Positions 9,194-64,000 of a stretch of DNA of 64,000 nt are shown here, piece after piece. Positions within the stretch are counted from its first letter, which is position 1. The number at the start of each line of letters is the position of its first letter. The DNA is from Xanthomonas maliensis (GTDB lineage: Bacteria; Pseudomonadota; Gammaproteobacteria; Xanthomonadales; Xanthomonadaceae). A model generated the notes under the pieces. The model had not been told where the DNA came from, ran no database searches, and worked only from the letters and a program-made list of their open reading frames with translations. Position numbers and translations under genes: made by a program. Location: the NCBI RefSeq assembly GCF_009192945.1, contig NZ_NSET01000042.1, forward strand, positions 1-64,000. The letters are read 5' to 3'.

Positions 9194-9267
9194 GCGCCCT
9201 ACCATAGCAACGCAGGTGTCGGCCTGCAGCAGATTGCGCGCACCGCAGATGTCGGGGCGCGCCGCTC

Positions 9268-11391: not shown

Positions 11392-11730
11392 GCCGAGCTC
11401 TCCGCTGATGTCCGCTAACTACGCAAAGACGATGGCGGAAGTGTCGCGAGGCGACGCATGTCCACTGCACCCGATCATTGGCCGTATGCCACCTAGCGTC
11501 AACCAACAGGACGCGGTCATGGCGCTCGGTAAGAAGCGCCCCACCCTGTCCATCGATCAAACTGTGACGCCGATGCCACGCAAGGCCTGCTCTTGAAGCA
11601 CTGCTGGCTGATCGAACTGCAGTCAGCCGTGTTCTTATCCCCTGCCCTGGCAATGCGGCTGCGGCCCTCGGCCTGCCAATGGCGCCTGGCGCCGCGCCCG
11701 CGAGAGCGGCACATACGCCAGCGTGGACCG
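11392..11730. other. Intergenic region between galE and the glucan-synthase-like gene
   Basis: About 340 bp without a convincing gene. On the minus strand GGAGAGC precedes the glucan-synthase start, a usable ribosome-binding site. No terminator or clear promoter hexamers were found. Confidence 0.5.
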
Positions 11731-12741: not shown

Positions 12742-12970
12742 TCCGAACCTCTGTCCTTAAGTATCGGGGCGCGTCGCATATACGCTCACGGGCGGCCGCG
12801 GCAGGCATCTGCGCGCGTCACGATAGCCAACAGCAACACCCGCGTGCAAGAGGCGGCTGGCGCCCCCCAGCATCGCTGCGCAACGATAGGTTAACGCCGG
12901 CAACGCTCGCTTTCGGCCACTGATCTCACCTAGTATCGGCTCCATCGACGAATCGCCCGGACGCGCACAG

Positions 12971-13735: not shown

Positions 13736-14644
13736 GGCGCGGTGTGCGCCCCGTTTGTGGTCGATGCATTGTGTGCTTTGGGTTGACGCGAACGCGATGG
13801 CATCTCGTCAGCGCGACGCACGCGGGCTTAGATGCGGACGGGACCGACGGCCTGCTCCAGTGTGGTGCACTCACATTCACACCCACAAACATGCTGCGCT
13901 GCGATAGAAACGGTGCAAACAGCATCATGCGGCGAGCGCGTTTCGCATTCAGCTGCGCATTCGCATAAGCGTTCAGGGTCAATCTACTGCAGCGTGTCCA
14001 CATGTGTGCGGTTGCGTGTCAACCCGGCAATATCGTTAAGACGCAGCATCGCCAGTGCGCGTTGCGACGCTGACAAAGTAGCCACCATCTAACGTTGCGC
14101 GTTGTAACGCGCCTGTATCAGGACCAGCCTGGTTACACATCGATCAAAGCGCAGGTCGACCGCAGTGCCACTATGCTGCAACGTGATAGATACCGAGTCG
14201 CTCTCGACTAGCTTGACGAACACGGATTGATCGTAAGAGGATGCTGCCCACCAGCGCTGTCGACGTACCATCAGATGCGCAGCGGTGCCCCAACGTGGAG
14301 TGCAGGATGCCTGACAAACGTTGCATGGATCTGGAATCGGTCGAACGTGGAGGGTGTGCGTCGGCGACAACTGCCGCGCCGCGCGCCTGTCATTTTTCCC
14401 ACGCAGCAAGCACATCCCACGGTGGGCCGGACAAGCGGCTGTCGCGCCGCGGGGCGATGCAGCACGCGTGTGTTCGGCTCGGGCAGGCCACTGTGAGCGG
14501 CGACGTGGCATTGCAGGACTCCACGTTTTTCTTGAAGCGGCCGCGGCTTCGTATCGTGCACTAGCCGCACTCGCACTGCCGCTGCCGCTGCCGCGCAAGC
14601 GTACTGTGCACACGTAAGTTCCTGCGACATAGGAGTTCTCAAGG
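13736..14644. other. Long non-coding leader upstream of the biosynthetic cluster
   Basis: A 909-bp stretch with no gene I can support. It must hold the promoter of the cluster. GC content is visibly lower and more uneven than in the flanking genes. Notable elements: a pair of TTCGC boxes 13 bp apart (13942-13946 and 13960-13964), an inverted repeat GCGCGTT/AACGCGC at 14097-14112, and AGGAG at 14631-14635, nine nt before the sulfotransferase ATG. No sure -35/-10 pair was found. Confidence 0.55.
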
Positions 14645-15427
14645 ATGCAGAACAGCCGGTCCTACATCATTTGTACGACGATGCGCAGCGGCAGCACGAT
14701 GCTGGCAAGCGGACTACGCCAGACCACTATCGCCGGCCGGCCTGAGGAATACTTCGCGCCTCCGGTGCGCTTGCCGCAAGCGCAGATCTTCGACATGGAA
14801 CCGGCGCGCTATCGAAGCCTGCTGCAGGCCCATCGAGAGGCACATCCTGCAGCAAAGACGCTTCGGCATATCCTCGAAGCTGGCACGACCGACAATGGCG
14901 TGTTTGGCGTCAAGATTCATTACCAACGACCGTTTTCAGACTTCCATAATGCCGTGGAGTTGCTGCAAGCGTACTTTGACGATCGGCTCTCCTCGCCGGC
15001 AGCATTGTTCAGCCGTGCCTTTCCGCGTTTGTCCTATATCTGGCTGCGCCGTTGTGATCGGGTGGAACAGGCGGTCTCATTGTTCAAGGCCATCAAGACC
15101 AGCGAATTCGTTCGCGTGGAAGGTGTGAACGAGCCAGTCAGGCCGGTCCATGCAGACGACTTTGACGCCAGTACGATTCGGCGGCTTGCGGATTGGCTGC
15201 AAAGCGGCGATGACGCATGGCGCGCGTTCTTCAGCCGCTACAGGATCCAGCCGCTGACCATCGATTATGAGGATCTGGCGGCAGACTATCCATCCACCTT
15301 GCGCTCGGTGTTGGGCTACCTGGGGCTGGCGCAGCACTGCGATGTGGTCACCCAGACCCGCCATCAGCGTCAGTCCGATGAGATCTCCAAACATTGGGTG
15401 ACGCGCTTTCGCGAGATGCACGCGTGA
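14645..15427 (+). CDS. Stf0-type sulfotransferase
   Basis: The 260-residue protein matches the Stf0 family (trehalose 2-sulfotransferase type), which moves sulfate from PAPS to a hydroxyl of a sugar or other small molecule. The 5'-phosphosulfate loop is CTTMRSGSTMLASGL (residues 10-24), followed by GRPEEYF. The 3'-phosphate region reads YIWLRRCDRVEQAVSLFKA near residue 138, and YRIQPLTIDYEDL is also typical. AGGAG stands 9 nt before the ATG. It is the first gene of the NRPS/PKS operon and its stop overlaps the GTG start of the first megasynthase by 4 nt, so sulfation of the product or of an attached sugar is likely. Confidence 0.88.
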   Translation: MQNSRSYIICTTMRSGSTMLASGLRQTTIAGRPEEYFAPPVRLPQAQIFDMEPARYRSLLQAHREAHPAAKTLRHILEAGTTDNGVFGVKIHYQRPFSDFHNAVELLQAYFDDRLSSPAALFSRAFPRLSYIWLRRCDRVEQAVSLFKAIKTSEFVRVEGVNEPVRPVHADDFDASTIRRLADWLQSGDDAWRAFFSRYRIQPLTIDYEDLAADYPSTLRSVLGYLGLAQHCDVVTQTRHQRQSDEISKHWVTRFREMHA

Positions 15428-18400
15428 CCAATCATCTGGACGCGACTGCCTGGCTGTCCGACGGGCCGGTGCCCGGCGGCATCGATGGCGATGGGTCGGC
15501 GGCTACGTTGCTGGACCGATTCGCGGCGCAGGTCCAACGTGCGCCGGAGGCCATCGCACTGAGCTACGGTCAGGACACGCTGACCTATCGCGAGCTGCAC
15601 GCACGTGCCGGGCAGCTTGCAGTGCACTTCCAGAGCCTGGGTGTGGAGCCTGGCTGCATTGTCGCCCTGTGTCTGGAGCGCTCGCCGTTGCTGATTGCCA
15701 GCGTGCTAGGTCTATTGCGCGCAGGTGCCGCTTATCTGCCGATCGACCCAGCCACACCTGCTGCCCGCGTTGCCTTCATGCTCGAAGACAGTGGCGCCCG
15801 CATGGTGTTGACCGACGCGGATCTGGGCGAGGCGGGTGCGCTCGCCGCACATCGCGTGGTTCGCCTGGACGCTGCTGTCCGGTTGCCAGCCGCACCGAGC
15901 GCGACGGGCCCACGGGTCCTGATGCCGAACGATGGGTTGGCCTACGTCATCTATACCTCTGGCTCGACTGGCCAACCGAAGGGCGTTCTGGTTCCGCAAT
16001 CCAATGTCGTGGCGCTGTTCGACGCATCGCAGGCGCGCTTTCGCTTCGGCCCCCAGGACGTGTGGACGTTGTTCCATTCCTACGCTTTCGACTTTTCTGT
16101 TTGGGAGATGTGGGGTGCGCTGCTGTATGGCGGTCGTCTGGTCATCGTTCCTGGCACGGTCAATCGCGATACCGAAGCCTTCTATGAGCTGGTGAGTCGC
16201 GAACGCGTCACCGTCCTCAATCAGACGCCTTCGGCGTTCTCCCAGTTCATGGCGGTCGACGAGGCACAGCGGCTCGCACTGCGGTTGCGGCTGGTCATCT
16301 TCGGCGGAGAAGCGCTACGGTTCGGCGAGCTCCAGCACTGGGTCGAGCGGCACGGCGATACGGCTCCGGAACTGGTGAACATGTATGGCATCACCGAAAC
16401 CACGGTGCATGTCAGCCTGCGACGCGTGCTTGCAGAGGACACCCACCAGCGGCAAGCGAGCCTGTTGGGCCAGGCTCTGTCGCACCTGTCAATTCACGTG
16501 CTCGATGAGCGCCTGCAGCCGGTCGAGGATGGCTGCCCAGGCGAACTCTACGTGTCCGGCCGCGGGCTCGCATGGGGCTATCTCAATCGCAGCGCGCTGA
16601 CCGCATGTCGCTTCATCGCCAACCCATTCGCGACTGGCGAACGACTCTATCGCAGTGGCGACCTGGCCAGGCGCACCGCCGAGGGCGACATCGAGTATCT
16701 GGGCAGGGTCGATCAACAGGTCAAGCTGCGCGGCTTCCGGATCGAGCTGGGCGAGATCGAGGCGGCGCTACTGCGTCATCCCGCGGTGCGGCAAGCGGTC
16801 GTCATGTTGCGCCAAGATGATGCACAACGCAGCGCACTCGTGGCCTACGTTGTCGCCTCCAACCCCGCAACGAACGAGCTGGCGGCACGTGCGGACGATA
16901 CCGTGGCGCAATGGCAGGCCTTGTATCAGGAGACGTATCGCCCGGCAGACGCCAAACGTGGCCCGGACTTCACCGGCTGGCTGAGCAGCTATACCGGCCT
17001 GCCGATTGGCGAAGCGGACATGCAGCAATGGCTGCAGGCGACGGCGAACAGACTCTTGGCTCGGCGCCCGCGACGACTACTGGAGATCGGCTGCGGACTT
17101 GGCCTGGTGCTCGAGCAGGTGGCGCCGCACTGCACGTCCTACGTCGCGACAGACCTTTCGTCGGTTGCAGTCTCGCACGTGCGGCAATGGCTGCTTGCCC
17201 ACGAGCACCTGCAGCACGTGAGCGTGCGTCAGCAGGCGGCAATCGAATTTTCGGAACTGCCCAAGGACTTCGATACGGTCGTGCTGAATTCGGTGATTCA
17301 GTACTTCCCAAGCATTGACTACCTGCTGGAGGTGCTGCGGCAGGCGGCCGCGCATGTGACGCCGGGAGGGCGCATCTTTGTTGGTGATGTCCGTAACTAC
17401 GCGTTGCTGGAGCTGTTCCATGCATCGGTGCAGGTGGCGCGCGCAGACGATGCGATGTCGGTTGCGCAGCTGCAAGCTGCCATCGACCGCAGCATACGGC
17501 AGGAAAAGGAGCTGCTGGTGGCGCCGGCGTTCTTCCAGAGTCTGCGGCAATGGGTGCCGACGATCACTGGCGTGCACGTGCTGCTCAAGCGTGGCGACGC
17601 CCATAACGAGCTGAATCAGTACCGCTACGACGTGTGGCTGGACGTGGGAGATGTGGCCACCGTTGCAGCCGACGCCATCCAATGGCACCCGCAGGACGAT
17701 GCCCCGCTGGTCGCGCTCGCCGACTATCTTGTTCAGGAGCGACCTACGCGTTTGCATGTGCCGGCGCTTCCCAATGCCCGGTTGGCGGTGGAACTGGCCA
17801 CGCTCGCGCAGCTGCGCAGGTGCAGCCCGAGCTGCACCGTCGGTGAGCTGCGTGCACACGTCGCGCGCGCGACGTCCCCGGCAGTGCAGCCGGAGGAGGT
17901 CTGGCAGCTGGGTGAACGCCTGGGCTATGAGGTTGCACTGAGCTGGTCCGAGAACGCGAGCGGGCAGCTGTCTGCAGAATTCAGTGATCGCAGTCGCCTC
18001 GTCGAGCGCGTGCTTGCGGCTCCGGCCACCGACACGATGCCGCCCGCGGGGGCGCTCGCCCAGTACGCCAACGATCCGCTCGTCGGTGTTTGGCAACACG
18101 CCTTGCTGCGCGAATTGCGTGCGCATCTGCGTGAGATGTTGCCGGCGCATATGCTGCCATCGGCGACTCTGCTGCTGCCAGCGCTGCCGTTGACCGTCAA
18201 CGGCAAGGTGGACAAGGCGCGTTTGCCTGCGCCGGATCAACGGATCGATCTGGCTGACTACACCGAACCCCACACGCCGCTGCAGCAGACCCTGGCCGCG
18301 ATCTTCGCCGAGGTGCTGCGGCTGGATCGTGTGGGGCTGCACGACAGTTTCTTCGAGCTGGGTGGCAACTCGCTGCTGGCCATGCGGATCGTCACCCAGG

Positions 18401-21400
18401 TGCGTGGCCAACTGGGGGTCGCGCTGCCGCTGCGGGCGATCTTCGAGCATGCCACGGTCGCGGGAATCGAAACGGTGGTGGACACCCTGCGTGCGGAATC
18501 GTCGGAGGAGGCGTTACCGGCGCTGGGTCGGCGTCGGCAAGGCGAAGCGATACCCCTGTCGTTTCCGCAGGAGCGGCTGTGGTTCATCGAGCAACTTGGT
18601 CTGGTGGGGGCGGCCTACCACGTACCGTTGGCCTTCCGCCTGCACGGACAGGTGCAGGTGAGCGCTCTGCGGGCCGCAGTGGCCGATCTGGTGCGACGGC
18701 ATGAAATGTTGCGGACCCGCCTGGTCGTGGTCGGCGCAGAGCCACAACAAGTAATCGACCCTGCACCGGCAGATCCGTTGGCCATCCAGGATCTGCGCGA
18801 TCTGGCCCCATTGCAGGCGCAGGCACGCGTGGCTGAATTACTGGACGCCGAAGCGCGGCATACCACCGATCTGCAGCGCGGCCCGTTGTTTCGCGCCTGC
18901 CTGCTGTGGGTCGAAGACGATGTGTGGGTGCTGATCCTGGCTGCTCACCATCTCGCCGCCGATGGCTGGTCGCATGCAGTGATCTTTCGCGACCTCAGCG
19001 CGCTGTACCGAGTGCACACGCAGCCTGGCACGCCGCCGCTGCCGACCCAGGCGCTGCAATACGCCGATTACGCGCTATGGCAGCGCCGCTGGCTGACCGG
19101 CACGCGTCTTGCCCAGCAGCTGGATTACTGGACACGACAGCTGGCCGACGCGCCGGACCTGCTGGCCCTACCCACCGACCGGCCGCGACCTGCGGTTGCA
19201 AGCTTCCGCGGTGCCCTGCATCGTTTCACGCTACCGCCGCTGGCCGTGCGCCGTCTTCCCGAGTTCGCCCACGAACAGGGCGTCACGCCATTCATGGCCT
19301 TGCTCGCAGCGTTTCAGGTCCTGCTATCGCGTTGGAGCGGCGGCTCGGACATCGTCGTGGGGACGCCGACCGCCGGGCGCACATCGCAGGAGACGGAGCA
19401 GATCGTCGGCCTGTTCATCAACACCTTGGCGTTGCGGGCACACATCGATGCGCAGGCCTGCTTTGGCGACATCCTGGCGCAGGTCAAGGAGACCGCGCTG
19501 GCAGCCTTCGCGCACCAGGACGCGCCATTCGAGCAGGTTGTCGCTGCACTGAAGCCCGACCGCAACCTGTCGCGTCAGCCGATCGTGCAGGTGATCTTCG
19601 CGCTACAGAACACCCCGCCCAGCGAGCTGCGGCTGGGGCAGGCGCGGATCACGCCGCTCGCGCTGCCGAGCAGTAGCGCCAAGTACGACCTGACATTGAA
19701 CCTCATCCAGTCCAGGGAGACCCTGACGGGCGAGATCGAGTACGCCACCGACCTATTCGATGCGACCACGATTGCGGACCTGGCGCAGTGGTACGGCAGC
19801 ATGCTGGTGTCGGCGATGGAACAGCCCGAACGACCGGTATCGCACCTGCGGCTGTTCGCTGCGGCACCTGCTCACGCATCCGAAGGCAGGACAGCGGACG
19901 ATTGCAGTGTGTTGGATCTTTTCGACGCCCAGGTTGTGCGCGCGCCGCATGCGCCTGCGATCGAGTCGGCAACGCAGTGCCTGAGTTACGCCGAGCTCAG
20001 CGCCCAGTCCGATCGCTGGGCGCGTTGGTTGAATCGCCAAGGCATCGCCCGTGGCGATTGCGTGGCGGTGGTCAGCAATCAGCAGATCGACACCTTCCTG
20101 GCGATGCTCGCCATCCTCAAGGCCGGCGCGGCGTATCTGCCGATCAATGCCGACGCACCCACCGCACGGCGGCGGGCAACCCTGCAGGACGCATGCCCCC
20201 GCTTGGTCCTTGCGGATGCGGCCGTACTGTCCGACCTGCCGGCCGGCGCCATCGCCTTCGAGAGCATCGCCACCGCGACCATGGACGCGGCGTTCGACCG
20301 CACGCACGCCATAGGGCCCTCGCCTGCCGGTGGCGATCTGGCTTATGTGATCTACACCTCCGGATCGACCGGGAGGCCTAAAGGTGTGCTGCTCGAACAT
20401 CGGGGACTTCACCAGCTGGTCCTGGCCCAGATCGAGCGCTTCGCCATCACCCCGGCGAGCCGGCTCTTGCAATTTGCGAGTCTGGGTTTCGACGCCTCGG
20501 TCTCGGAAGTATTCACGACCCTGTGTCGCGGTGCGTGCCTGTGCCTGCCTGCGCCGACGGACATCCTGGCGGGCGACGGACTGGCCCAACTGCTGCGTGC
20601 ACGGGCGATCACTCACGTGACGCTGCCGCCGAGCGCGATACCCGGTCTGGTGCAGGCCGGCGGAGCGCCGACGTTGCACACCCTAGTGGTCGCCGGCGAG
20701 GCGTGCGCGGCGGCCATTGTCCGCTCCTGGCCCACGCCGGTCCGTTTTATCAACGCCTATGGCCCGACCGAGGCCACCGTCTGCGCAACCCTCCACATCT
20801 GCGACCCGGACGAGTTGCGTAATCCTCCGATCGGCAAGCCCTTGCCGCATGTGCGCCTGTACGTACTCGACCCTGCACTGCAGCCGGTGCCTGCCGGGAT
20901 TGCCGGCGAGATCCACATCGGTGGGACCGGCGTGGGGCGGGGATATCATGGCCGTGCCGCGCTCACTGCCGAACGCTTCATCGCCGATCCGTTCGGTCCG
21001 CCGGGGACGCGCATGTACCGTAGCGGCGATCGGGGCCGGCGGCGCCCGGACGGCACGGTGGAGTTCCTCGGACGGCTGGATCGCCAGGTGAAGGTGCGGG
21101 GCTACCGCATCGAACCCGGCGACGTCGAATCCGCCTTGCTGCAGCTCGCTGGCGTCGGTCAAGCGTTGGTACTTGCGCAAGGAGAACTCGATCGCCGACG
21201 TCTCATTGCCTACGTGGTACCCGCCCATCCCGGTGCCGTGACGCCGGAGTCGATACTCGCCGACTTGCGCGTCCATTTGCCGGCTTACCTGGTGCCTGCG
21301 AGCGTGATCGTGCTGGCGCAATTCCCGCTCACAGCCAGCGGCAAGATCGATCAATCAGCCCTGCCTGCCGTGGACGCCTGCAGCGTTCCGCAGACGTCGG

Positions 21401-24400
21401 CAGCACCGCACACGCCGACGGAACGTCAGCTGGCGGCCATCTGGATCGAGGTGCTGGGCTGCCAGTCGCCGGGTGTGGACGACAATTTTTTCGCCTTGGG
21501 CGGACATTCCCTGCTGGCCGCGCGGGCGGTCGGACGGATCCGCGAAACCATGGCGGTGGCTGTCAGTGTGCGCGACGTCTTTACGGCCAGCAATTTGCGG
21601 GACTTGGCGCGGGTGATCGACGAGCTGCAGGTGGCGTGTCCGGCCAGTGCCGCACCGATCCCGGTCGCGCATGGTACGCGCCTGCCGTTGTCCAGCATCC
21701 AGCAAAGCCTGTGGATGCTGGATCGCTTGGGTGCGGCCGGCAGTGCCTATGCCATGCCCATCACCTTGCGTCATCAGGGCGAGGTCGATGTATCGGCGAT
21801 GCAGCAGGCGCTATCGGAGATCGTGCGGCGGCACGAGATCCTGCGCACCACCTTCGTCTGCGATGCGCAGGGGCCGCATTGCGTCGTCCAGCCGGCGCAG
21901 ACAGTCGCGCTGGAAGTGCACGATCTTAGCGCACTGTCGTCATCGGATTGCGCCAGGACCAGTCTCCGTCTTCAGCAGGCGCTGATCGAGCGCCGCTTCG
22001 ATTTGGGGCGCGACCTGCTGTTGCGCGGGCTATTGATGCAGTGCGCCGATCAGCAGTGGCTGCTGTGTCTGACGACGCACCACATCGCCGCCGATGGCTG
22101 GTCGATCACGCTGCTGGTAGAGGAGTTGCAGAGGCTTTACACGTCCTATGCCGACGGCCGACTCCCCGTGCCGCCGCCGCCGCGCATGCAATACGCCGAT
22201 TACAGCGTCTGGCAGCGCGATCGCTGGGACGAGTCGGCACTGGAGCAGCACCGGCGCTATTGGCAAGCGTGCCTTGCCGATGCGCCGATGGTCTTCGAGC
22301 TGCCGGCCGACCGCCCGCGTCCACCGGTGCAGAGCTACCGCGGCGCGCTTCATCGCTTCAATATCCCGGCCGAGCTGCACCGCGCATTGGCTGCGCTGAG
22401 TGCCGCCCATGGGGTCACCCTCTACATGACGCTGCTGGCGGCCTTCAATGTGCTGTTGCACCGGCTCAGCGGCTGCCGCGACATTTTGATCGGTTCACCG
22501 ATCGCCACGCGCATGGAATCGGAGTTGATCGACATGATCGGCCCGCTGTTGAACACCGTGGTCCTGCGCATCGACCTGAGCGAGGATCCGACATTTGCCA
22601 CCGTTCTGGCGCGCGCGCGTGCGATGACGCTGGATGCTTACGAACATCAGGCTCTGCCCTTCGAACAACTGGTCGATCAGCTGCGGCCGCCGCGCGATCT
22701 GGCCAGGCAGCCACTGGTGCAGGTGCTGTTTTCCTTGCAGAACCAGCCGACCGCCAGCACAGCGCCGACGGACGTGTGGTCGCGCATCGACAGTCCATGG
22801 AGCTATGCCAAGTACGACCTGTCGTTGTACATCACCGAAACCGCAGATGGGCTGGCATGCGAATACGAATACGCCACCGACCTGTTCGACGGCACGACCA
22901 TCGCGCGTTGGAGCGATCATCTCCGCTGCCTGCTGGCGGCGATCGTTGCCGATCCCGGCATGCGCGCAAGCCGGCTTGCCATTTTCGATGGTGTCGCACG
23001 CAACCAGTTACTGTCCACGGCGCGTCGAATCGCCGGCACCGGCCTGGAGACCGGCTCCCTCCCCGAGCTGGTCGCACGGCAGGCGCGCCGCAGACCGCAG
23101 GCCCTGGCGGTGCGCTGCGCCACGCGCGCGCTGACGTATGCGCAACTGGACGAACAGAGCGACGGCATGGCCGCGCGGTTGCGCCGGAAAGGCGCGTCTG
23201 CCGGGCAGCGTGTCGGTCTGTGCGTCGAGCGCTCGGTCGACCTGGTAGTGGCAGTGCTGGCGGTCCTGAAGTCCGGCGCCGCCTATGTCCCACTCGATCC
23301 AGCCTATCCGCAGCAACGGCTCGGCCACATGGTGCGCGACAGCGCACCCTGCTGTATCGTGACCGATCACGCCAGTGCCTCGCGCGTCGCGCCGCTGATC
23401 GCTGCCGATTGTCTGTTGGATATCGACCAATCGGTGCCACCGCAGGAAGCCGCACCGCTGGCGGATGCGCCACCGCGGTCGGCCGACAGCATCGCCTACA
23501 TTATCTATACCTCTGGGAGCACCGGTCAGCCGAAGGGCTGCGTGATCACCGATCGCGGGCTGCTCAACCTGCTGGGCGCGATGGCCGAGCAGTTCGCCAT
23601 CGGCGAGGGTGATCGGCTGCTGGCGGTCACACCGTACAGCTTCGACATCGCTGGCCTCGAACTGCTGCTGCCGCTGGTTCGCGGCGCTTGCACCCACCTC
23701 AGTTCGCTGCCGCAGTCACGCGATGCGCGGCGATTGATGCAGCTCGTGCAGGAGCTGCGGCCGAGCATCATGCAGGCCACGCCGGCGACCTGGCAGATGC
23801 TGCATCGTGCGGGTTGGCGCGCCGATGGGACGATGCGCATCCTCTGCGGTGGCGAAGCGCTTCCCGACGCCCTGCGCGATCAGTTGGCCCAGGCGGGTTC
23901 GGCATGGAACATGTATGGGCCGACCGAGACGACCATCTGGTCGACCACCGCACCGCTGACCGTGGGGGGCCCCACCACGATCGGCACGCCGATCGCCAAT
24001 ACCTGCACCTACGTCCTCGACGACGCCATGCAGCTGGTACCAGTCGGTGTCGAGGGCGATCTATACATCGGTGGCGACGGCGTCGCGCGTGGCTACTGGA
24101 ACCGACCTGCGCTGACCGCACAGCGCTTCATTGCCGACCCATTTGCCGTCGGTCGCATTCTCTACCAGACAGGCGATCGCGCACGCTGGCGGGCCGACGG
24201 TAGCCTGCAGTACCTGGGACGGCGCGATACCCAGATCAAACTGCGCGGCTTTCGCATCGAGCTGGGCGAGATCGAAGCCGCATTGGCCAAGCATCCTGAC
24301 GTGGACGCATGCGCCTGCGTGCTGCGCCAACTGGGCGAGCCGCAGCTGGTCGCCGCCTATGTGGCCGCAACCGGGACGCTCCCCGATCGCGATGCGTTGG

Positions 24401-27400
24401 TGCGCCATTTGCGTGCGCAGTTACCTGAGCATATGGTTCCCGTTGACTACATCGCCGTGCCCGCGCTGCCGCTGACTGCCAACGGCAAGATCGATCGCCA
24501 GCAGATCGCCGGCTGGCCGGCCTCCGGTGCAGCGCCCCGGCAGGTTTCCTCCGGTGGCGATATCGGCCAACACCTGTTGGCGATCTGGCAGCAAGCCCTG
24601 GGTCGGCAGGATCTGGACATCGAGGAGGGCTTCTTCGCACAAGGCGGGACCTCGCTGATGGCGGTCGTGGTTGCCGAACGGATCGCCGCTGAGTTGCAGC
24701 CTGGCTTCGACGTCACCGCGATCTTCGAGTTTGGCTCGATCGCCAAGCTGGCCGCTCACCTCCAGGCGCTAGCTGCCGCGCCTGCCGCGCATGCGCTGCT
24801 GCCCGCGGCCATCGCCCCGGTCACCGCAGCCGGCGCGACCGAGCCCGCAGACGCGGCGGACAAGATGCCTGCCTACTACGCCGATAGCGTCGCCATCATC
24901 GGAATATCCTGTGCATTCCCGGGCGCGCGCAATGCCGAGGAATTCTGGAGCAACCTGCTGGCCGGCAAGGAAAGCATCGAGCGCATTCCCGAGGAGGAAC
25001 TGCGCCAGCTCGGTATTCCCGCGCACGTGCTGGCCGACCCCAGATACGTGCCGGTGCGTTCGGAATTGCAGGACCGTGCGCTGTTTGATGCGGCGTTCTT
25101 CAACATCTCCGAACGCGACGCGCAGCTGATGGATCCGCAGCTGCGTCTGTTGTTGATGCATGCCTGGCGCGCGATCGAGGATGCCGGCTACAACGTGGAG
25201 GATGTCGCGCGGTGCGCGGTCTACGCCACCGCCAGTACCAGCGCCTACCACGCACGTCAGTTGGCCTCGGCCTCGGCGTCGGCGCAGAGCATCGAGCAGT
25301 ACGTAGGCTGGATCATGGCGCAGAACGGCACCTTGCCGGCAGTGATCTCCAACAAGCTCGGCCTGGTGGGGCCTAGCCTGTTCGTCCATTCCAACTGCTC
25401 ATCGTCGTTGAGCGCCTTGGATCTGGCGCATCGGCGCCTGCTTGAGGGCGAATGGCCCTATGCGCTGGTCGCAGCGGCCCGTGTCGCCAGCTTCGAAGGC
25501 AGCGGCTACGTGCACCAGGACGGCATGAATTTTTCCAGCGACGGCCACTTGCGTGCGTTCGATGCCGCGGCCGACGGCGCGGTCGGTGGGGAAGGCGTCG
25601 CGGTCCTGCTGCTCAAGCGCGCACACGCGGCCATCGCGGATGGCGATCCCATCTATGCCATCCTACGCGCCACGGCAACCAACAACGACGGTGGCCACAG
25701 CGCAGGCTTCTATGCTCCCAGCGTTGTCGGCCAACGTGCGGTGGTGCAGGGCGCACTCGCCGCCAGCGGGATCGATCCCGCCACGATCGGCTATGTCGAA
25801 GCGCATGGCACCGGCACGCCGCTTGGCGACCCGATTGAATTGGCCGCCCTGAGCCAAGCTTACGGCACCGCTGCGCGGCAGGCCTGCGGCATCGGCTCGG
25901 TCAAGACCAACATCGGTCATCTGGACACCGCAGCGGGACTGGCCGGCTGCATCAAGGTGGCGCTGAGCCTGTCGCGCGGCGCGATCCCTGCCTCGCTGCA
26001 TTTCGTCTCGCCCAATCCGGCGTTGAAGCTCGAGCAGTCGCCGTTCTTCGTCGTGGACGCCGTGCGACGTTGGCAGGGACCGATGCCCTACCGTGCGGCC
26101 GTCAGCGCGATGGGTGTAGGGGGCAGCAACGCACACGCGATCCTGGAAGCCTGCGTGGCTCGGCCGCAGTCGTCCTCTGCGAAGGCCGGCCCCTGGCTGT
26201 TCCCGCTGTCCGCGCACGATCCGACCTGCCTGCGCGTCCTGGCAGAACAACTGCTGGCCTTCGTCGCACGGCATCCGGACCTGGCCTTGTGCCAGCTGGC
26301 CTATACGTTACAAGTGGGCCGCAAGCCCATGCCGTATCGACTGGCCATCAGCGCGGACGATGCGGCGCAGTTGCAGGCGCGCCTGCGGCAGTACCTGCAA
26401 GCGCCGACCGCTGCAGTCGGCGTGCGCTGCGGTCATGTCGCCACCGTCGCGCCGCACACCGACGACACAGCCGCCGCAGAATTGACCGCCGCATTGGCGC
26501 GCTGGGCGCAGCAAGGTCATCACGACATGCTGGCCTCGTTGTGGGTCAATGGGTTCGTGTTCGACTGGCGTTCGCTCTATGGCAGCACGCCGCCGCGCCG
26601 GCTCAATGCCCCGGTCTATCCCTTCAACGGAAAACATTTCTGGCTGGATGCACCGGCGACGCAAGCGGCGGCGGCGACCACCGCAGCTCAGCCGGTGCCG
26701 GACGGCGTGATCCTGTTTGCCGAACGCTGGGAGCCGGCGGCGCCATCGCCGCTCCCCTGGGATCACCTCCGCTACTTGGTGCTATGCGACTTTCCATCGG
26801 CCGTGCAATGGCCGGTGACGCAGCCCACGCCCGGTCTGGTCGTACGGACGCTGCCGCGTACCGCCGACAGTCTCGGCCATCGCTTCATGGAGCATGCGGC
26901 AGCGCTGCTGGAGCTGCTAAAGGATGCCGCGGCTGCCGCTCCGGCCATGGTGCAGGTGGTGGTGCCGGACGACGCCGATGGCGCCGTCTGTGCCGCACTC
27001 GTCGCGCTGCTGTACAGCGCCAAGCGCGAGTACGACAGGCTCGAAGTGCAGCTGATCCAGATGCCATGCGATGCCGCGCCCGACGCGATTGCCCGGCTGC
27101 GGAGCGCGGTGCCCGATCGTGTGCGCGAACGACGCGAAACCTCGGCAGCAGCATTACGCAGACGCTTCGTGCCGCTGCCGCGACAGCCGCAGCAACCGCC
27201 AATGCCAACGCCTTGGCGCGATGGTGGTCGCTATCTGATCACCGGTGGGGGGCGGCTGGGCATCGGGCTTGCGCGGGAAATGGCTGCAACGCTATCCAGT
27301 GGCGTCCTGGTCGTGGTCGGCCGCAGCGCGCAAGCGTCGGAACTCGCCACCGAGCTGTCGGCTCTGCGGACTGCGACCTTGCAGGTCGACTACCGCCGTG

Positions 27401-30400
27401 CCGATGTCACGGATCGCGCTGCCGTGCAGGCCGTGCTGCAGCACATGCGCGAACGCTACGGTGGGGTCGATGGAATCATCCACACCGCCGGGGTACTGGA
27501 CGACGGCTATATCGCTCGCAAGCAGCGGGCCACGTTGCAACGCGTGCTCGCGCCCAAGGTGCTGGGGCTGGAGCACCTGGACGCCTGCCTTGGCAGTGCG
27601 CCGTTGGATTTCCTGATCTGCTTTGGTTCGGTCAGCGGCGCGGTGGGAAGCGCAGGACAGTGCGACTACGCCACCGCCAATGCGTTCATGAGGTCATTTG
27701 CCGTGACCCGCAATGCGCGCGCCGCGCAGGGACAGTGCTGCGGCAGGACGCTATGCATCGATTGGCCCTACTGGCGCGATGGCGGCATGCGGCTTTCGGC
27801 GCACGCAGAGGCAGAACTGGTCCAGGCCGGGCTCGTTCCGCTGGAGACCGCTGCCGGCATCGAGGCGCTATCGCGTGCCTGGCACAGCGGGGAGTCGTCG
27901 GTCAGCGTGCTGGCCGGCGCGGGTGTCGAGATGGCCGCACTGTTCGCGCAGGTGGCAGAGCGTGCAGGCGACCGGCCAGTGACGCCACCGGCCAGCGATG
28001 CCTCTGAGCTGTCCCGGTTGACATTGCAGCGGTTGATCGCGGTGTTCGCTGAGGTTTCCAGGATCGATCCTGCGCGGATCGATGGCAGCGTACCGCTGGA
28101 GACCTTCAGCATCGACTCGATCATGATTGCCCAGCTCAACCAACGCCTGGGCACCACCTTCCCTGGGCTATCGAAGACGCTGTTCTATCAATTCACGACG
28201 CTGCAGGCGATTGCCGATGAGCTGGCCACCCGGCATGCCGATGCCTGTGTGCGTTGGACCGGTCAGGCCGCCACCGTCGCTGCCGCCGTCCCGATGCGCA
28301 GCCCCGCCATTGAGCAGAGCGCGGCAGCGGCGCCGCGCGATCCGTGTGAGCCCATCGCGATCATCGGCCTGGCCGGTCAGTATCCGCACGCTCGTACGTT
28401 GGAGGCCTTCTGGCAGAACCTGCGTGCCGGGCGCGATTGCATCGACGAGATCCCATCGCAGCGTTGGTCGCTGGACGGTTTCTTTTGCGAGGATCCACAG
28501 CAGGCGATCGCCCACAGGAAGAGCTACAGCCGCTGGGGAGGATTCCTGGAGGGCTTCGCCGATTTCGATCCGCTGTTCTTCTCGATCGCGCCTGCCGAGG
28601 CGATGGACATGGATCCACAGGAGCGCCTGTTCCTGCAGGCGTGCTGGCAGGCACTGGAGGACGGTCACCATACGCGCCAGACCCTGGCCAGCCGATATGG
28701 CGGGCGCGTTGGTGTGTTCGTTGGCATTACCAAGACCGGGTTCGAGTTGCATGGCCGGGATCTGGCGGCGCAAGGCAGCACGGCGATGCCGTATACCAGC
28801 TTCGGCTCGGTGGCCAATCGGGTGTCGTATCTGCTGGATTTGAATGGCCCGAGCTTTCCCATCGACACCATGTGTTCGGCCTCGCTGACCGCCATCCACG
28901 AGGCCTGCGAGCATCTGCGGCGCGATGAATGTGCGTTGGCGCTGGCCGGCGGGGTGAATCTGTATCTCCACCCTTCCACCTACGTGGGCCTGTGTTCCCA
29001 GCGCATGCTGTCCACCGATGGGCGTTGCCGCAGCTTCGGTGCCCATGCCAGCGGCTTTGTTCCCGGCGAAGGCGTCGGCGCGGTCCTGCTCAAGCCGTTG
29101 TCGGCCGCCCAGCGCGATGGCGACACCATCCACGGAGTGATCCTGGGCTCGGGGATCAATCACGGCGGGCGTACGCACGGCTATACCGTGCCCAACCCGC
29201 GTGCGCAGCGCGATCTGATCCAGCGCACGCTGGCGCGCTGCGGCCTGGATGCCGCCGACATCAGCTACGTCGAAGCGCATGGCACCGGCACGGAAATGGG
29301 CGATCCCATCGAAGTGGAGGGCCTGGCACAGGCGTTCGCGGCTGGCGCACGCGCGCCCAGGGCCTGTGCGCTGGGGTCGGTGAAATCGAATATCGGTCAT
29401 CTGGAAGCCGCGGCCGGCATCGCCGGGCTGACCAAGGTGCTGTTGCAGTTCAAGCATGGCGAACTTGTGCCGACGCTGCATTGCGCCGATCCCAATCCCA
29501 ACCTGGCGTTAGCCGATACCCCATTCGTGCTGCAGCACCAGGTGGCACCCTGGACCAGGCCACTGCGGGCCGATGGTGCCGTGGTGCCGCGAATCGCCAC
29601 CGTGTCATCGTTCGGCGCCGGTGGCGCCAATGCCTTCCTGGTCGTGCAGGAAGCCCCCTCCACGGCGACGCCCACCGTCGCGCTACGTCAGCACACCGGC
29701 TGGCCCGCGCTGATCGTCATGTCGGCACGCCGGCCCGATCGGCTGGCCGACTACGCACGCGCGCTGCAAGCCGCTCTCGCGCAAGGAGCGTTCAGCGATG
29801 CAGATCTGCCGGCGATTGCCGCCACCTTGCAGCTGGGCCGCGAGGCGATGGAGTACCGGCTCGCATTCGCGGCACGCTCGCTGACCGAAGCGATCGACTG
29901 CTTGCAGCAGTATTTGCAGGATCCGCAGGATCGTGGCGCTGTCGCTGTCGGCAAGCGGATGGCCAGTGCACCAGCGCAGGCCGAAGGATGGCAGACCGGG
30001 CCCTACGCACCGGTGCTGGCGGCCTGGACGCGTGGCGCGGAGACCGATTGGAGCAGCCTGTACGACGGTACGCCTGCGCGCGTGCGCCTGCCGACGTATC
30101 CGTTTGCTCAGGAGTCCTATTGGCCGGTCGCTGCGACGCCGCAGCCGCAGCGTGCAGACGACCCGGCGCGCACCACGCCAGCACTGGGCGGCGCAGACGT
30201 GCAGGCGACTGCCAGCGAAGACCTGCTGCTGGTTCCCGATTGGGTGCCGATCGCTGCACCCGCGGCAGTGCCTATCGCAACCTCGGTGCTGGTCATCGGC
30301 GCGGCCCAAGCGCCGTTGCCGCACTCCGACGCCGCCGTCAGCGGTATGACGCCCATCCCCTGGAGCGGCGCGGCCGCGTTGCGGCAGCAGCTCGTCGAAC

Positions 30401-50186: not shown

Positions 50187-50297
50187 GCGTGGGGGCAGCG
50201 ATCGCAGGAATCTTTCGCGACCGCCTTGAGTGCAGCGTCAGCCGGCAGAACGCGGAGTGCGGATCGTGGTTTCAGGAAGATCAAACGGACGGCGGAT

Positions 50298-60596
<10,299 letters not shown>

Positions 60597-60668
60597 GGCG
60601 GCGTGCTGCCGCGCTACCGCCAATGCTGCAACCCGCAGGCGCCGTCCTGCACGCTATCGGAGATCACC

Positions 60669-60899
60669 GTGTCTGAGCACGACGTAACGGAGGACTTCAT
60701 CGTCCTCATCAATGACGAAGAACAGTATTCCTTGTGGTCCAGTGCGATCGATATCCCACAAGGCTGGCGCCTGGTCTACGGCCCGTCGAACAAGCAGGCA
60801 TGTCTGGCCTATGTCGAGGAGGTGTGGACCGACCTGACCCCGCGCAGCGTGCGCCTCTCGCTGCAGCAGGCGTCGCAGCACGGCGACGGCAGCCGATGA
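60669..60899 (+). CDS. MbtH-like NRPS accessory protein
   Basis: The 76-residue protein carries the MbtH signature: FIVLINDEEQYSLWSSAIDI, then PQGWRLVYG, then YVEEVWTDLTPRSVR, matching N-x-E-x-Q-x-S-L-W ... P-x-G-W ... W-T-D-x-x-P-x-S. Such proteins bind NRPS adenylation domains and are needed for their folding or activity, so it probably serves the Thr, Tyr, Gly or Phe domains of this cluster. I chose the GTG at 60669 because GGAG (60659-60662) lies six nt upstream; an earlier GTG at 60603 would add 22 atypical residues. Its stop overlaps the next gene by ATGA. Confidence 0.94.
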   Translation: MSEHDVTEDFIVLINDEEQYSLWSSAIDIPQGWRLVYGPSNKQACLAYVEEVWTDLTPRSVRLSLQQASQHGDGSR

Positions 60900-61765
60900 G
60901 CGAAGCGTCGATACGCATCGGCGTCTCCGACGGCGTGGCCCTGCATGTACGCCAGTGGGGGCCGCCGCCGATCCGGCTGTTGCTGGTGCATGGGTTCGGG
61001 CAGGGCAGCTTCGTCTGGCGTTCGCTGGCGCAATCGCTGCCGGAGTGCGGGATCGCCGCGGTCGATCTGCGTGGGCACGGCGATTCCGATCGCGACCCGA
61101 TGCAGCACTACGCGGTCGCCACGCATGTCCAGGATGTGGTCGCAGTAGCGCGCGCGCTGGGCCTGCGCGACTACGTCCTGCTTGGCCATTCCCTGGGGGC
61201 GGCAGTCGCGATCCTGGCGAGCGAGCACCTGCCACAACCGCCACGCGCGGTTGTCTTGATCGATGGCGGGCCCGGCTTGAGTGCCACCGCATCGGCGTAT
61301 ATCCGTGACGAGTTCCTGCGCAGCAAGTTCCGCTATCGGTCGGTCGGGGAATACGAGGAGCAACTGCAGGCAGCCATGCCGCTGGCCGTTCCTGCGTTGC
61401 TGCGCGCCTTGGCAACCGACGCGCTGGAGGCGCTCGGACCGGACGAGTTCCGTCTCAAGGCAGACCGTGCCTTGGGCTACCAACAGGCCTGCCCCACGCT
61501 GGAGTCCTCGCTGTGGCAGGCACTCGAACAGCTGGTGATCCCGGTCTTGTTGGTGCGCGGCGCGGTATCGGCGCTGTGTTCCCGGCTGTGGACCGACGCC
61601 TTCATCACCCGCGTTCCCGACGCCATCGTCGAGGCGGTGGATCGCGCCGGCCATGCGGTCATGCTGGACAACCCCGTGCAGTTCAACGCCGTGGTACGCC
61701 GCTATCTGTCGCACTGGCTGGGCCCGCAGGTCGGCCCGACGCCCCACCTTGCCTCCCTGGACTGA
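60896..61765 (+). CDS. Alpha/beta hydrolase, candidate chain-release or proofreading thioesterase
   Basis: The 289-residue alpha/beta hydrolase has the oxyanion HG in LLVHGFGQGSFVW, DLRGHGDSD, nucleophile elbow GHSLG (Ser99) and catalytic His253 in AGHAVMLDNP. It lacks a visible signal peptide. It starts within the MbtH stop codon (ATGA), so it is translationally coupled to the synthase operon. Since no megasynthase ends in a thioesterase, this protein may release or cyclise the product. Equally possible are type II thioesterase editing or an ester-hydrolysing tailoring step. The sequence looks closer to general alpha/beta hydrolases than to classical RifR-type thioesterases. Confidence 0.88.
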   Translation: MSEASIRIGVSDGVALHVRQWGPPPIRLLLVHGFGQGSFVWRSLAQSLPECGIAAVDLRGHGDSDRDPMQHYAVATHVQDVVAVARALGLRDYVLLGHSLGAAVAILASEHLPQPPRAVVLIDGGPGLSATASAYIRDEFLRSKFRYRSVGEYEEQLQAAMPLAVPALLRALATDALEALGPDEFRLKADRALGYQQACPTLESSLWQALEQLVIPVLLVRGAVSALCSRLWTDAFITRVPDAIVEAVDRAGHAVMLDNPVQFNAVVRRYLSHWLGPQVGPTPHLASLD

Positions 61766-61768
61766 ACG

Positions 61769-62872
61769 ATGCTCTGGCATGCCGTCATCACGCGATTCAG
61801 CTATCGCCATTCCACCACGCGCGCCGGGCTCGATGGCGTCCTGGTCTCGGTGCTCCGCCGCGATCCGCTGCAACCGGATCGCCTTGCCTTTCGCTACTCG
61901 CTGTTCGAATTGACCTGCCTGCCCTCGTTGCTGGCCCAGACCGAGCAGAACTTCGACTGGTTCATCATCGTCGATCCGGCGCTACCGTCGCACTGGCGCC
62001 AGCGGTTGCAGGCACTGGTGAGTGGCCGCACCCGCACTCATCTGCATGACTACGATCCCGCCGAGGACCTGACCAAGACAGATTGGCTGCAGCGGTATGC
62101 ACCACCGCAAACGTGCCAGGTGTTGACGACACTACTGGACGACGACGACGCGCTGCCGGCGGACTTCATCGAGACCCTGCAACGCGCCGTCGGCGAGCAG
62201 GACGGCATGCTTGCACCGGTGGTGACACTGGCGAGCAGGAAAAGCCGGCAGTGGGAACTGGTGCACAGCCGTCGGGCACCACTGGGCTACCAATGCAGCT
62301 GGCATCGCGGCAACTGGGTGCTGTCCACCGGACTGTCACTGCTCTGCCAGTGGCCGATGTATCCATTGACCGTGCTCGCGATCCATCATCAGGTCGCCGA
62401 CCTGTGGTATCGCCCCGAACGCGGCCCGGCGTTGATGAGCTTGCTGCAGGAATGCTGGTCGTTGCCGGACGCGCGCGTGGCCGAGGCCACCGCGTTCATC
62501 GCAGGGCGGATGGATGACTTCCGTGCACGCGTCGCGGCCTACGACGATGACGCAGCGGTGGCGGACAGCCAGCGCCAGCACTTCATCGACATCAGCGATG
62601 TCGTCGAACCTTTCGTGGTCAGCAACCATTTCGGCAACGACCAGGTGATGCGGTTGTTCGAGCCCAAGCCCGATCGCAGCCCGGTCCGCGATGCGCTGGA
62701 CTTCCCTGGGGTACCGATCGACCTGGACGGATTTGCGCACAATGCGGCTCACTTCGCCAAACGACCCCGCATCTACTACAGCCTGCTACGCGAGCTGTGG
62801 TCGCGGCCGTTTCCACTATTGCCCCGCTTGCGCCTGCTGGCGTGGGCAAGCTGGCGTTTTGCGCGTGCGTGA
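61769..62872 (+). CDS. Putative rhamnosyltransferase (glycosyltransferase)
   Basis: The 367-residue protein fits the putative rhamnosyl-transferase family (PF11316 type): an N-terminal HAVITRFSYR, then RYSLFELTCLPSLLAQTEQNFDWFIIVD, and the acidic donor-binding stretch LDDDDALPADFIE near residues 122-134. It is cytoplasmic, with no membrane segment. The usual donor would be a dTDP- or GDP-deoxysugar; this cannot be read from the sequence. It starts 3 bp after the hydrolase stop, in the same operon, so the NRPS/PKS product is likely a glycoside. With the sulfotransferase at the other end, a sulfated sugar is a possible decoration. Confidence 0.82.
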   Translation: MLWHAVITRFSYRHSTTRAGLDGVLVSVLRRDPLQPDRLAFRYSLFELTCLPSLLAQTEQNFDWFIIVDPALPSHWRQRLQALVSGRTRTHLHDYDPAEDLTKTDWLQRYAPPQTCQVLTTLLDDDDALPADFIETLQRAVGEQDGMLAPVVTLASRKSRQWELVHSRRAPLGYQCSWHRGNWVLSTGLSLLCQWPMYPLTVLAIHHQVADLWYRPERGPALMSLLQECWSLPDARVAEATAFIAGRMDDFRARVAAYDDDAAVADSQRQHFIDISDVVEPFVVSNHFGNDQVMRLFEPKPDRSPVRDALDFPGVPIDLDGFAHNAAHFAKRPRIYYSLLRELWSRPFPLLPRLRLLAWASWRFARA

Positions 62873-62905
62873 TCGCAACCGGGAACCCGACCAGAGGAGA
62901 GCACG

Positions 62906-63787
62906 ATGCACGCGATGATGTTTCCCGGGCAAGGCTCACAACGGCCAGGAATGGGCGAGGACCTGTTCGACCTGGCCGATTACACCGCCATCGAACCGCA
63001 GGTCGACGCACTGCTCGGCTATTCCTTGCGCGCGCGCTGTCTCGATAAGGCCTACGTCTTCTCCGGGACCGATGTCACCCAGCCCTGCCTGTATATGGTC
63101 AATGCACTGCACGGCATCCGAGTTCTGCGCTCGGGAGTGCAGATCGGTTGCGTCGCCGGTCACAGCCTTGGGGAATACAACGCGCTGCAGGCGGCAGGTG
63201 TTTTTGACCTGCTGACCGGTCTGCGGCTGGTGCACAAGCGCGGGACCTTGATGGCGCAAGCGCGCGGCGGCGCGATGACCGCGGTCCTGGGCCTGAGCTC
63301 GGCCACGATCGTGGACCTGATGTTGGGCCACGGCCTGGACATGATCGACGTCGCCAACTACAACGCGCCTGCCCAGACCGTCATCTCCGGACCCGAGGCA
63401 GAGGTCGCGCAGGCCACGCGGATCTTCGAGTCGGCTGGTGCGACAGCGTGTATCCGGCTTCCAGTGAGCGGCGCCTTCCATTCGCGCTTGATGGAAACAG
63501 CCGCGCGCGCCTTCGCCGGCTTCATCGACGCAGTCGACTTCCAGCGTCCGCAGATTCCGGTGATCTCCAACGTCACCGGGACCTTTTATCCCGCCAAGGC
63601 ATCCAGTGCGGTGATTGCCTCGCTGCTGGTTCGGCAGATCGTGCGACCGGTACTCTGGGTCAAATGCGTGCACAGCATGCTCGACGCCGGCGCGACCGAT
63701 TTCGTGGAAGCCGGCCCAGGCAACGTATTGATGCGCTTGATTCCGCAAATCCGTGCAGTTGGCCGCACGCCGGCTGTCGTCCACTGA
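62906..63787 (+). CDS. Free-standing malonyl acyltransferase (trans-AT)
   Basis: The 293-residue acyltransferase is of the FabD type: MFPGQGSQRPGMG at the N-terminus, GHSLGEY with nucleophile Ser87, Arg112 in HKRGTLM (carboxylate binding), and GAFHS with catalytic His192, the malonyl-specific form. None of the eight KS modules has its own AT, so this protein should load malonyl-CoA onto all PKS ACPs in trans. GAGGAG precedes the ATG. A housekeeping FabD is not likely here because no fatty-acid genes surround it. Only one AT is visible; the acyl-hydrolase partner common in such clusters is not seen in the window. Confidence 0.92.
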   Translation: MHAMMFPGQGSQRPGMGEDLFDLADYTAIEPQVDALLGYSLRARCLDKAYVFSGTDVTQPCLYMVNALHGIRVLRSGVQIGCVAGHSLGEYNALQAAGVFDLLTGLRLVHKRGTLMAQARGGAMTAVLGLSSATIVDLMLGHGLDMIDVANYNAPAQTVISGPEAEVAQATRIFESAGATACIRLPVSGAFHSRLMETAARAFAGFIDAVDFQRPQIPVISNVTGTFYPAKASSAVIASLLVRQIVRPVLWVKCVHSMLDAGATDFVEAGPGNVLMRLIPQIRAVGRTPAVVH

Positions 63788-63805
63788 GCATCGGGAACGC
63801 CATCC

Positions 63806-64000
63806 ATGCCACCTCTCTTACACGGGCAGGCTGCTGCCATCCTGATGTACCACCGCATCGCAGACGATGGCACCGATCTTTGCGTCTCGCCGGCGGAGTT
63901 CCGTGCCCACATGGCCAGTCTGCGTGCAGCCGGCTACCCGGTGCTCGCGTTGACGGACCTGGCTGCGCAACTGAAGGCAGGCACGCTGCCGGTACGCAGC
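63806..64000 (+). CDS. Polysaccharide deacetylase-like protein, N-terminal part (cut by window)
   Basis: The first 65 codons are present. They read AAAILMYHRIADDGTDLCVSPAEF, then RAHMASLRAAGYPVLALTDLAAQL, the start of NodB-homology (polysaccharide deacetylase) proteins: 'lmYHri', then the 'F..hl..L...Gy.v..l.dl' helix. The catalytic Asp-His-His metal site lies beyond the window. It begins 18 bp after the acyltransferase stop, so it belongs to the same transcript. It could remove an N-acetyl group from a sugar attached to the product; this is inference. Confidence 0.78.
   Translation, partial: MPPLLHGQAAAILMYHRIADDGTDLCVSPAEFRAHMASLRAAGYPVLALTDLAAQLKAGTLPVRS

Follow-up and report, generated by a model that had tools for sequence, protein, structure and literature searches.

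A trans-acyltransferase peptide-polyketide island with stand-alone GT84 glycosyltransferases in Xanthomonas maliensis

Contig NZ_NSET01000042.1 of Xanthomonas maliensis (assembly GCF_009192945.1) carries a long genomic island built around a hybrid nonribosomal peptide synthetase (NRPS) and polyketide synthase (PKS) assembly line, together with tailoring and export genes. The stretch analysed, hereafter the window, comprises bases 1-64000 of this 109,258-bp contig, in a genome of 5,196,983 bases. Alignment with a genome of the same genus (G018) places the island at contig positions 9212-82141 (72,930 bp): the match to G018 ends at 9211 and restarts at 82142, with 271 bp in between in G018. A first-pass annotation of the same DNA had given the cluster the span 14645..64000, which turned out too short on both sides; about 18 kb of the island lie to the right of the window. 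The first and the last of the genes matched in Lysobacter stand immediately inside the two borders of the island. As read from its sequence, the locus is a real, intact-looking orphan cluster of the trans-acyltransferase (trans-AT) PKS/NRPS type, and its new element is an apparently repurposed half of a glucan synthase. The core features are as follows.

9212..64000, no strand: part of the island inside the window, bordered according to the G018 match; the remainder, up to contig position 82141, is outside the window
15394..34149, plus strand: synthetase A, modules 1-6, 6251 amino acids (aa), by Pfam; the start given is the most upstream one and is uncertain
34146..50186, plus strand: synthetase B, modules 7-10, 5346 aa, by Pfam
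50226..60596, plus strand: synthetase C, modules 11-12, 3456 aa, by Pfam

The frames of the three synthetases are open from end to end, with no internal stops. Their domains were assigned by running Pfam on 22 overlapping pieces covering all of A, B and C. Using A for adenylation, C for condensation, PCP for peptidyl carrier protein, ACP for acyl carrier protein, KS for ketosynthase, KR for ketoreductase, DH for dehydratase and MT for methyltransferase domains, synthetase A reads A(Thr)-N-MT-PCP; C-A(Tyr)-PCP; C-A(Gly)-PCP; KS-KR-ACP; KS-KR-ACP; KS-ACP. Synthetase B follows with C-A(Phe)-PCP; KS-DH-KR-MT-ACP-ACP; KS-DH-KR-ACP; KS-ACP, and synthetase C with KS-KR-ACP; KS-DH-KR-MT-ACP-ACP-ACP. 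The total is twelve modules (4 NRPS and 8 PKS) on collinear genes. Among the assigned domains, the weakest E-value is about 3e-7, for an ACP, and the strongest 7e-104, for a C domain; the same gene order is present in two Lysobacter genomes at 58-79% identity. Together these results exclude chance. None of the 22 pieces matches the acyltransferase domain PF00698: the KS modules are devoid of an integral acyltransferase (AT) and a free AT is encoded in the cluster, as in trans-AT hybrids. A RhiE-like linker (PF22336) follows each of the eight KS domains. No releasing domain was recognised by Pfam within the assembly line, and a free alpha/beta hydrolase is encoded downstream.

The A domains of modules 1, 2, 3 and 7 display the pocket codes DFWNIGMVHK, DASTVAAVCK, DILQLGMIWK and DAWTIAAVCK, in which position 278 was read by hand from the sequence and motifs and the final K was assumed. 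From the specificity code tables, we take these codes to specify Thr, Tyr, Gly and Phe, respectively. As predicted from its domains, module 1 is an N-methyl-Thr module, because a methyltransferase comes after its A domain. Both Lysobacter copies fit the same four substrates at the code positions that are visible (position 278 of module 1 being excluded from the comparison), with one position altered from M to L in the Gly code. The first-pass annotation had proposed twelve modules on three genes in the order MeThr-Tyr-Gly-three ketides-Phe-five ketides, and both the A-domain codes and the domain order agree with it. Active-site motifs are likewise preserved, as the attachment serine is kept in all 15 carrier domains and the Cys-His-His motifs searched for in all 8 KS domains. 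The KS of modules 4 and 8, located directly after NRPS modules, contain an HSNCSSS active-site motif (HTNCSSS at the module 8 KS in one Lysobacter copy), whereas the other six have DTACS, DTMCS or DSMCS; the restriction of HSNCSSS to the KS that come after NRPS modules fits a collinear working of the assembly line. The reductive domains would predict hydroxyls at modules 4, 5 and 11 and double bonds at modules 8, 9 and 12. C-methyls would be expected at modules 8 and 12 and unreduced ketones at modules 6 and 10.

The synthetases are accompanied by the following genes in the window.

11731..12741, minus strand: GalE, UDP-glucose 4-epimerase (TIGR01179, 422 bits for a cut-off of 262.3; syntenic in Lysobacter, 70-72% identity)
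12971..13735, plus strand: S-adenosylmethionine (SAM)-dependent methyltransferase, PF13578 (syntenic in Lysobacter, 62-63% identity)
14645..15427, plus strand: Stf0-family sulfotransferase (PF09037, E 2e-40; Stf0 structure PDB 1tex, E 5.5e-22; 73-74% identity in Lysobacter)
60603..60899, plus strand: MbtH-like protein (PF03621, E 1e-20)
60734..61765 (limits of the open reading frame, ORF), plus strand: stand-alone alpha/beta hydrolase, candidate releasing thioesterase (PF12697, E 1e-22)
61769..62872, plus strand: PF11316 glycosyltransferase, named 'putative rhamnosyl transferase' in Pfam
62906..63787, plus strand: free (trans) acyltransferase, FabD-like (PF00698; TIGR00128, 267.8 bits for a cut-off of 260.9)
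63806..64000, plus strand: start of a polysaccharide deacetylase (PF01522, L002:806-1756) whose gene ends at contig position 64756 (synteny, 59-61% identity)

Translation of the alpha/beta hydrolase more probably starts at the ATG at 60896. To the right of the window, the island continues with the rest of the polysaccharide deacetylase, an ATP-binding cassette (ABC) ATPase, an aldo-keto reductase, two MacB/FtsX permeases, a JmjC-like cupin and a DinB protein, and then with a second alpha/beta hydrolase (abh2), a luciferase-like monooxygenase (luc), an amidohydrolase, a carbamoyltransferase, a 707-aa protein of glycosyltransferase family 84 (GT84), a methyltransferase and an ABC exporter. Altogether 25 island genes were counted, all of them open in the host genome. 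Two further frames were discarded: an ORF at 12926-13693 (minus strand) has no Pfam match, overlies the PF13578 methyltransferase and was treated as an antisense frame, and ORF x1 (70969-71772, plus strand) gave way to abh2, which lies on the opposite strand and is 70% conserved. The genes from the sulfotransferase to the DinB protein form a plus-strand run in which no gap exceeds 169 bp and a number of genes overlap, which suggests a single long operon. The free AT, MbtH, Stf0 and PF11316 proteins were all located in this run, as first annotated. Of the host FabD proteins, a second and better-scoring one was found by a genome scan on contig C81.

Several of these genes point to a decorated product. 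The Stf0 protein matches PF09037 and reaches 122 bits against the NCBIfam equivalog for trehalose 2-sulfotransferase, whose cut-off is 400, so that it is assigned to the family and not to that equivalog. The carbamoyltransferase possesses both domains, PF02543 and PF16861 (Carbam_trans_N and Carbam_trans_C), like the O-carbamoyltransferases GdmN of the geldanamycin pathway and decarbamoylnovobiocin carbamoyltransferase (presumably NovN), which are its closest solved structures (E 2e-168 and E 1.8e-167, respectively). Unlike these two enzymes, it sits in a trans-AT PKS/NRPS island. Among 120 relatives it was matched in 16, namely the host genome and 15 genomes from other families of the order, with no match in the other genomes of the genus. 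The earlier prediction of a sulfated and/or glycosylated product is consistent with the Stf0 and PF11316 proteins and may be extended to carbamoylation and further glucosylation. Its deoxyhexose finds no support: 'rhamnosyltransferase' is a Pfam family name, no rhamnose-nucleotide gene was recognised among the 25 island genes and, the sugar-nucleotide gene of the island being galE, rhamnose is retained as part of that family name and not as the predicted sugar.

The cluster is not peculiar to the host strain. Syntenic copies occur in Lysobacter enzymogenes ATCC 29487 (pieces L006, L014-L017 and L021) and in Lysobacter sp. yr284 (pieces L005, L010-L013 and L019), the identity of 58-79% given above being that of the plus-strand run. 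Gene order is shared from galE to the right-hand ABC exporter. In yr284, 24 of the 25 island genes were matched, luc, the amidohydrolase, the carbamoyltransferase and the two GT84 genes at 29-34% only, and the best single match of synthetase B spans residues 1-3046. In L. enzymogenes, 23 of 25 were matched; both GT84 queries find the same gene as best match and a second GT84 gene adjoins it. The Lysobacter clusters differ from that of the host in having two ACP motifs in module 10 and a tandem GT84 pair on the right, with the carbamoyltransferase on one side of it and the conserved ABC exporter on the other, where the host genome has one of its GT84 genes at the left edge. L. enzymogenes is in addition devoid of abh2 and luc. 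A scan of the genome collection gave 22 pattern matches, of which three are relatives: both Lysobacter genomes and a short match in a deltaproteobacterium. The PF11316 glycosyltransferase is 78% identical to its X. arboricola counterpart, 72% to that of L. enzymogenes and 66% to that of X. sacchari.

The island contains two GT84-type membrane glycosyltransferases of 707 aa each, identified by structure match and alignment, whose stop-to-stop frames are 716 and 731 aa.

9268..11391, minus strand: stand-alone GT84-type membrane glycosyltransferase, left copy, 707 aa

Its counterpart towards the right end of the island (contig 76733-78856), the right copy, shares 71% identity with it. These proteins resemble the GT84 and transmembrane half of cyclic glucan synthase (PDB 8rf9, E 1.2e-97). 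The right copy was modelled with AlphaFold (pLDDT 86.7, pTM 0.86), and the model superimposes on 8rf9 with a Foldseek TM score of 0.81. Whereas cyclic glucan synthases are about 2,800-2,970 aa long, a length of 707 aa leaves no room for the cyclase and the glycoside hydrolase family 94 (GH94) phosphorylase halves. GT84 matches were found in 37 of 120 relatives and, beyond the two island copies, they mostly lie in frames of about 2,800-2,970 aa, with short, split or intermediate frames in seven genomes (G016, G029, G038, G045, G065, G135 and G147). Among the 34 other genomes of the genus, 18 have a GT84 match, of which 16 are in a frame of about 2,900 aa. In a protein search restricted to the best 120 of 1,287 hits, with a length limit that excludes full-length synthases, proteins of about 700 aa appear among the hits listed at 44-76% identity, after which identity drops to 38% and below; this group includes X. 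arboricola, X. sacchari and L. yananisis.

In the cyclic glucan synthase (Cgs) of Agrobacterium, the GT84 domain glucosylates the enzyme's own Y694 to start the chain, and the Y694A variant is reported not to grow when tested under osmotic stress (PMC10901819). According to this paper, known tyrosine-glycosylating enzymes are few, and those that also extend the sugar chain fewer still. Residues were compared in 28 stand-alone proteins, made up of the four intact copies of the host genome and L. enzymogenes and 24 protein hits (the short P0063 and the host's own P0039 and P0041 being left out), and in 93 further listed hits of 619-1,234 aa (P0066-P0158), many of which are named as partial glucan synthases. 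The catalytic residues D527, D624, D739, R773, W774 and R776 are kept in 28/28 stand-alone proteins and D626 in 27/28, and yet all 28 show a gap at the Y694 column. In the 93 other hits the catalytic residues are kept throughout and Y694 is present in 91; the two hits without it, of 697 and 687 aa, are themselves stand-alone in length. Since both the primer tyrosine and the cyclase and phosphorylase halves are lost, the acceptor must be another molecule. It is thus probable, as far as alignment can tell, that the stand-alone GT84 proteins glucosylate an outside acceptor, most likely the product of the cluster. This acceptor may in particular be the Tyr of the NRPS-PKS product. No GT84 protein in a natural-product cluster was seen in the accessible text of a review on glucan cyclisation (PMC11842490) or among the first 12 of 6,557 literature matches on GT84 in clusters, three of which mention GT84 a single time.

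Taken together, these data argue, with a probability of about 0.7, for an island that would act as one biosynthetic unit for a heavily decorated peptide-polyketide, glucosylated by the two GT84 enzymes. The free alpha/beta hydrolase would release the chain, which could then be sulfated by Stf0, glycosylated by the PF11316 enzyme and O-carbamoylated by the GdmN-like enzyme, as well as methylated, hydroxylated or de-N-acetylated by the other tailoring enzymes. GalE could make UDP-galactose from UDP-glucose, and the two membrane-bound GT84 enzymes would add glucose or a related sugar from a UDP-sugar, most likely to the released product, perhaps on the phenol of its Tyr or on a sugar already placed. 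Finally, the MacB-type and ABC exporters would carry the product out. The placing of each of these steps is presumptive. A bolder and rather tentative extension is that the GT84 enzymes, lacking their primer tyrosine, start a glucose or a short beta-1,2-glucan on the Tyr of the product, which would give a secreted molecule with a sulfated, carbamoylated glucan tail.

Several observations weigh against a single biosynthetic unit of this kind. The sub-operon on the right, to which the carbamoyltransferase and one GT84 belong, runs on the opposite strand, and since two of its genes, abh2 and luc, are missing from L. enzymogenes, it may be optional in part. In yr284 this sub-operon is heavily mutated while the genes outside are normal, so that the decorations are either dispensable in that strain or its product is a different one. 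Concerning the primer tyrosine, the short hits P0099 (722 aa) and P0130 (760 aa) retain Y694, six of the 28 stand-alone proteins have a tyrosine a few residues from the lost site, although not a conserved one, and the set of 28 includes some redundancy, P0051 and P0061 being near-copies of the two L. enzymogenes proteins. The strand and the partial variability of the sub-operon would also fit the idea that the synthetases and the GT84/carbamoyltransferase genes are separate functions travelling together, GT84 making a cell-surface or periplasmic beta-glucan. GT84 homologues elsewhere do make glucan (PMC10901819). In addition, the host draft genome has the two island copies as its only GT84 matches and a full-length Cgs was not found in it. 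Nevertheless, the GT84 copies flank the synthetases, one at the far left edge of the island and the other towards its right end, the Lysobacter pair is enclosed between the carbamoyltransferase and the conserved exporter, and the host proteins are too short for the cyclase and phosphorylase halves and have no primer tyrosine. Separate functions are considered unlikely.

As to the identity of the product, the first-pass annotation called it unknown, and this description stands for the literature searched (open-licence papers), in which no described product with this module order was found. The titles and abstracts listed on trans-AT, sulfotransferase, carbamoyltransferase and methylthreonine pathways revealed no matching compound. 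Named clusters were examined as candidates in the accessible portions of papers on Lysobacter (PMC4657364, PMC9410377, PMC11451712 and PMC6591275) and on Xanthomonas (PMC3849588, PMC7479056, PMC7930024 and PMC8734464), and the module order was absent from both sets. It has been reported that Xanthomonas strain GW contains a 69-kb novel NRPS cluster (PMC7479056). That the island makes an already described compound, as a known pathway in a new host, nonetheless finds some basis in Lysobacter surveys: one counts two uncharacterised hybrid trans-AT clusters, each in more than one genome, and for L. enzymogenes C3 and CX06 another table gives an 82.6-kb cluster typed 'NRPS, transAT-PKS' that includes fabD and pksL (PMC11451712, PMC9410377). 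The surveys leave these clusters unnamed and call their products unknown; they could include the host cluster. In X. cannabis, the trans-AT product described is a spliceostatin (PMC7930024); this pathway shares with the island the trans-AT mode and the genus, but its product class differs from the one predicted by the module order of the host cluster. With no matching compound in titles or abstracts either, a described compound appears improbable, to about the same degree as separate functions.

A peculiar sequence tract was observed in yr284. At about 356,950-368,450 of its contig G199:C29 (end of L005, L013 and L019), an 11.5-kb minus-strand run with abrupt edges covers luc, the amidohydrolase, the carbamoyltransferase and both GT84 genes and contains 264 A in 11,500 coding-strand bases (about 2%). 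Compared with L. enzymogenes, 15% of A is kept in the tract, with 30% changed to C, 33% to G and 22% to T, and 49% of C is kept, the remainder going mostly to G or T. By comparison, three yr284 genes outside the tract retain 88% of their A and 89% of their C positions, and the same genes of the host contig retain 76% and 67%, respectively. Composition is normal in the tract flanks, in L. enzymogenes and in the host contig. The tract frames remain mostly open (0-2 stops in each of four frames) because every stop codon contains A, and the GT84 copies have lost active-site residues. The tract might be an assembly error. A cause of the diversity-generating retroelement (DGR) type was rejected: the only PF00078 reverse transcriptase found in yr284 is of the RT-DUF3800 class and on another contig, with no apparent link to the tract. 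This gene (L036:442-2367, minus strand; class VII-A1) is a candidate anti-phage gene, and no PF00078 match was found in L. enzymogenes ATCC 29487.

The chromosomal spot of the island is bordered by two conserved genes, one per side: a cardiolipin synthase (89-90% identical to proteins named from Xanthomonas sp., X. campestris and X. melonis) and a gene that by its sequence looks like a hydroxyacid dehydrogenase. Calculated by hand from match positions, they are 79.7 kb apart in the host genome and 4.9-7.0 kb apart in 31 of 34 other genomes of the genus, the second gene being partly, weakly or brokenly matched in G012, G019, G021, G024 and G027. The spacing is about 37 kb in two genomes (G002 and G017), and the genes are on separate contigs in one (G007). 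No island protein matched the wider spot of G002 and G017 at E 1e-15, so the larger spacing there has another origin. These two genomes harbour a different insert at the spot (on G002:C2 and G017:C5), which in G017 includes an insertion sequence (IS)-type integrase and a 3'-phosphoadenosine 5'-phosphosulfate (PAPS)-reductase-like gene. This position of the chromosome may be a hot spot for insertions. A radical-SAM gene (7117-8247 of the window, minus strand) adjoins the left island border, is inverted in G018 and is present in two copies flanking the other insert in G002 and G017. Neither tRNA-driven integration (the window and pieces L002, L003, L004 and L033 contain no tRNA) nor integration at terminal repeats (longest exact match between the two 600-bp island ends at most 11 bp) was retained.

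An insertion of such limited distribution could also represent a silent or decayed acquisition that yields no product in the host strain. The genes are indeed rare. Of 199 relatives, the host's own genome alone has the PF11316 gene, and among 398 genomes across the order a single further genome matches it, weakly and in part; the cupin gene is matched in 17 of 120 relatives and at full length in the host genome only. Moreover, one of the two Lysobacter strains carries a ruined section of the cluster. On the contrary, all 25 island genes are open in the host, the active-site motifs that were checked are present and the island and its flanks have similar GC contents (65.6% and 66.6%). Silence or decay thus seems the least probable of the explanations considered.

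The large assembly line with an unknown product, shared by Xanthomonas and Lysobacter, is a practical target for compound discovery owing to its sharp borders, its conserved gene content and its two sequenced relatives. Beyond this, the GT84 result poses a testable question, namely whether a self-priming glucan synthase may have been turned into a tailoring enzyme through the loss of its primer residue.

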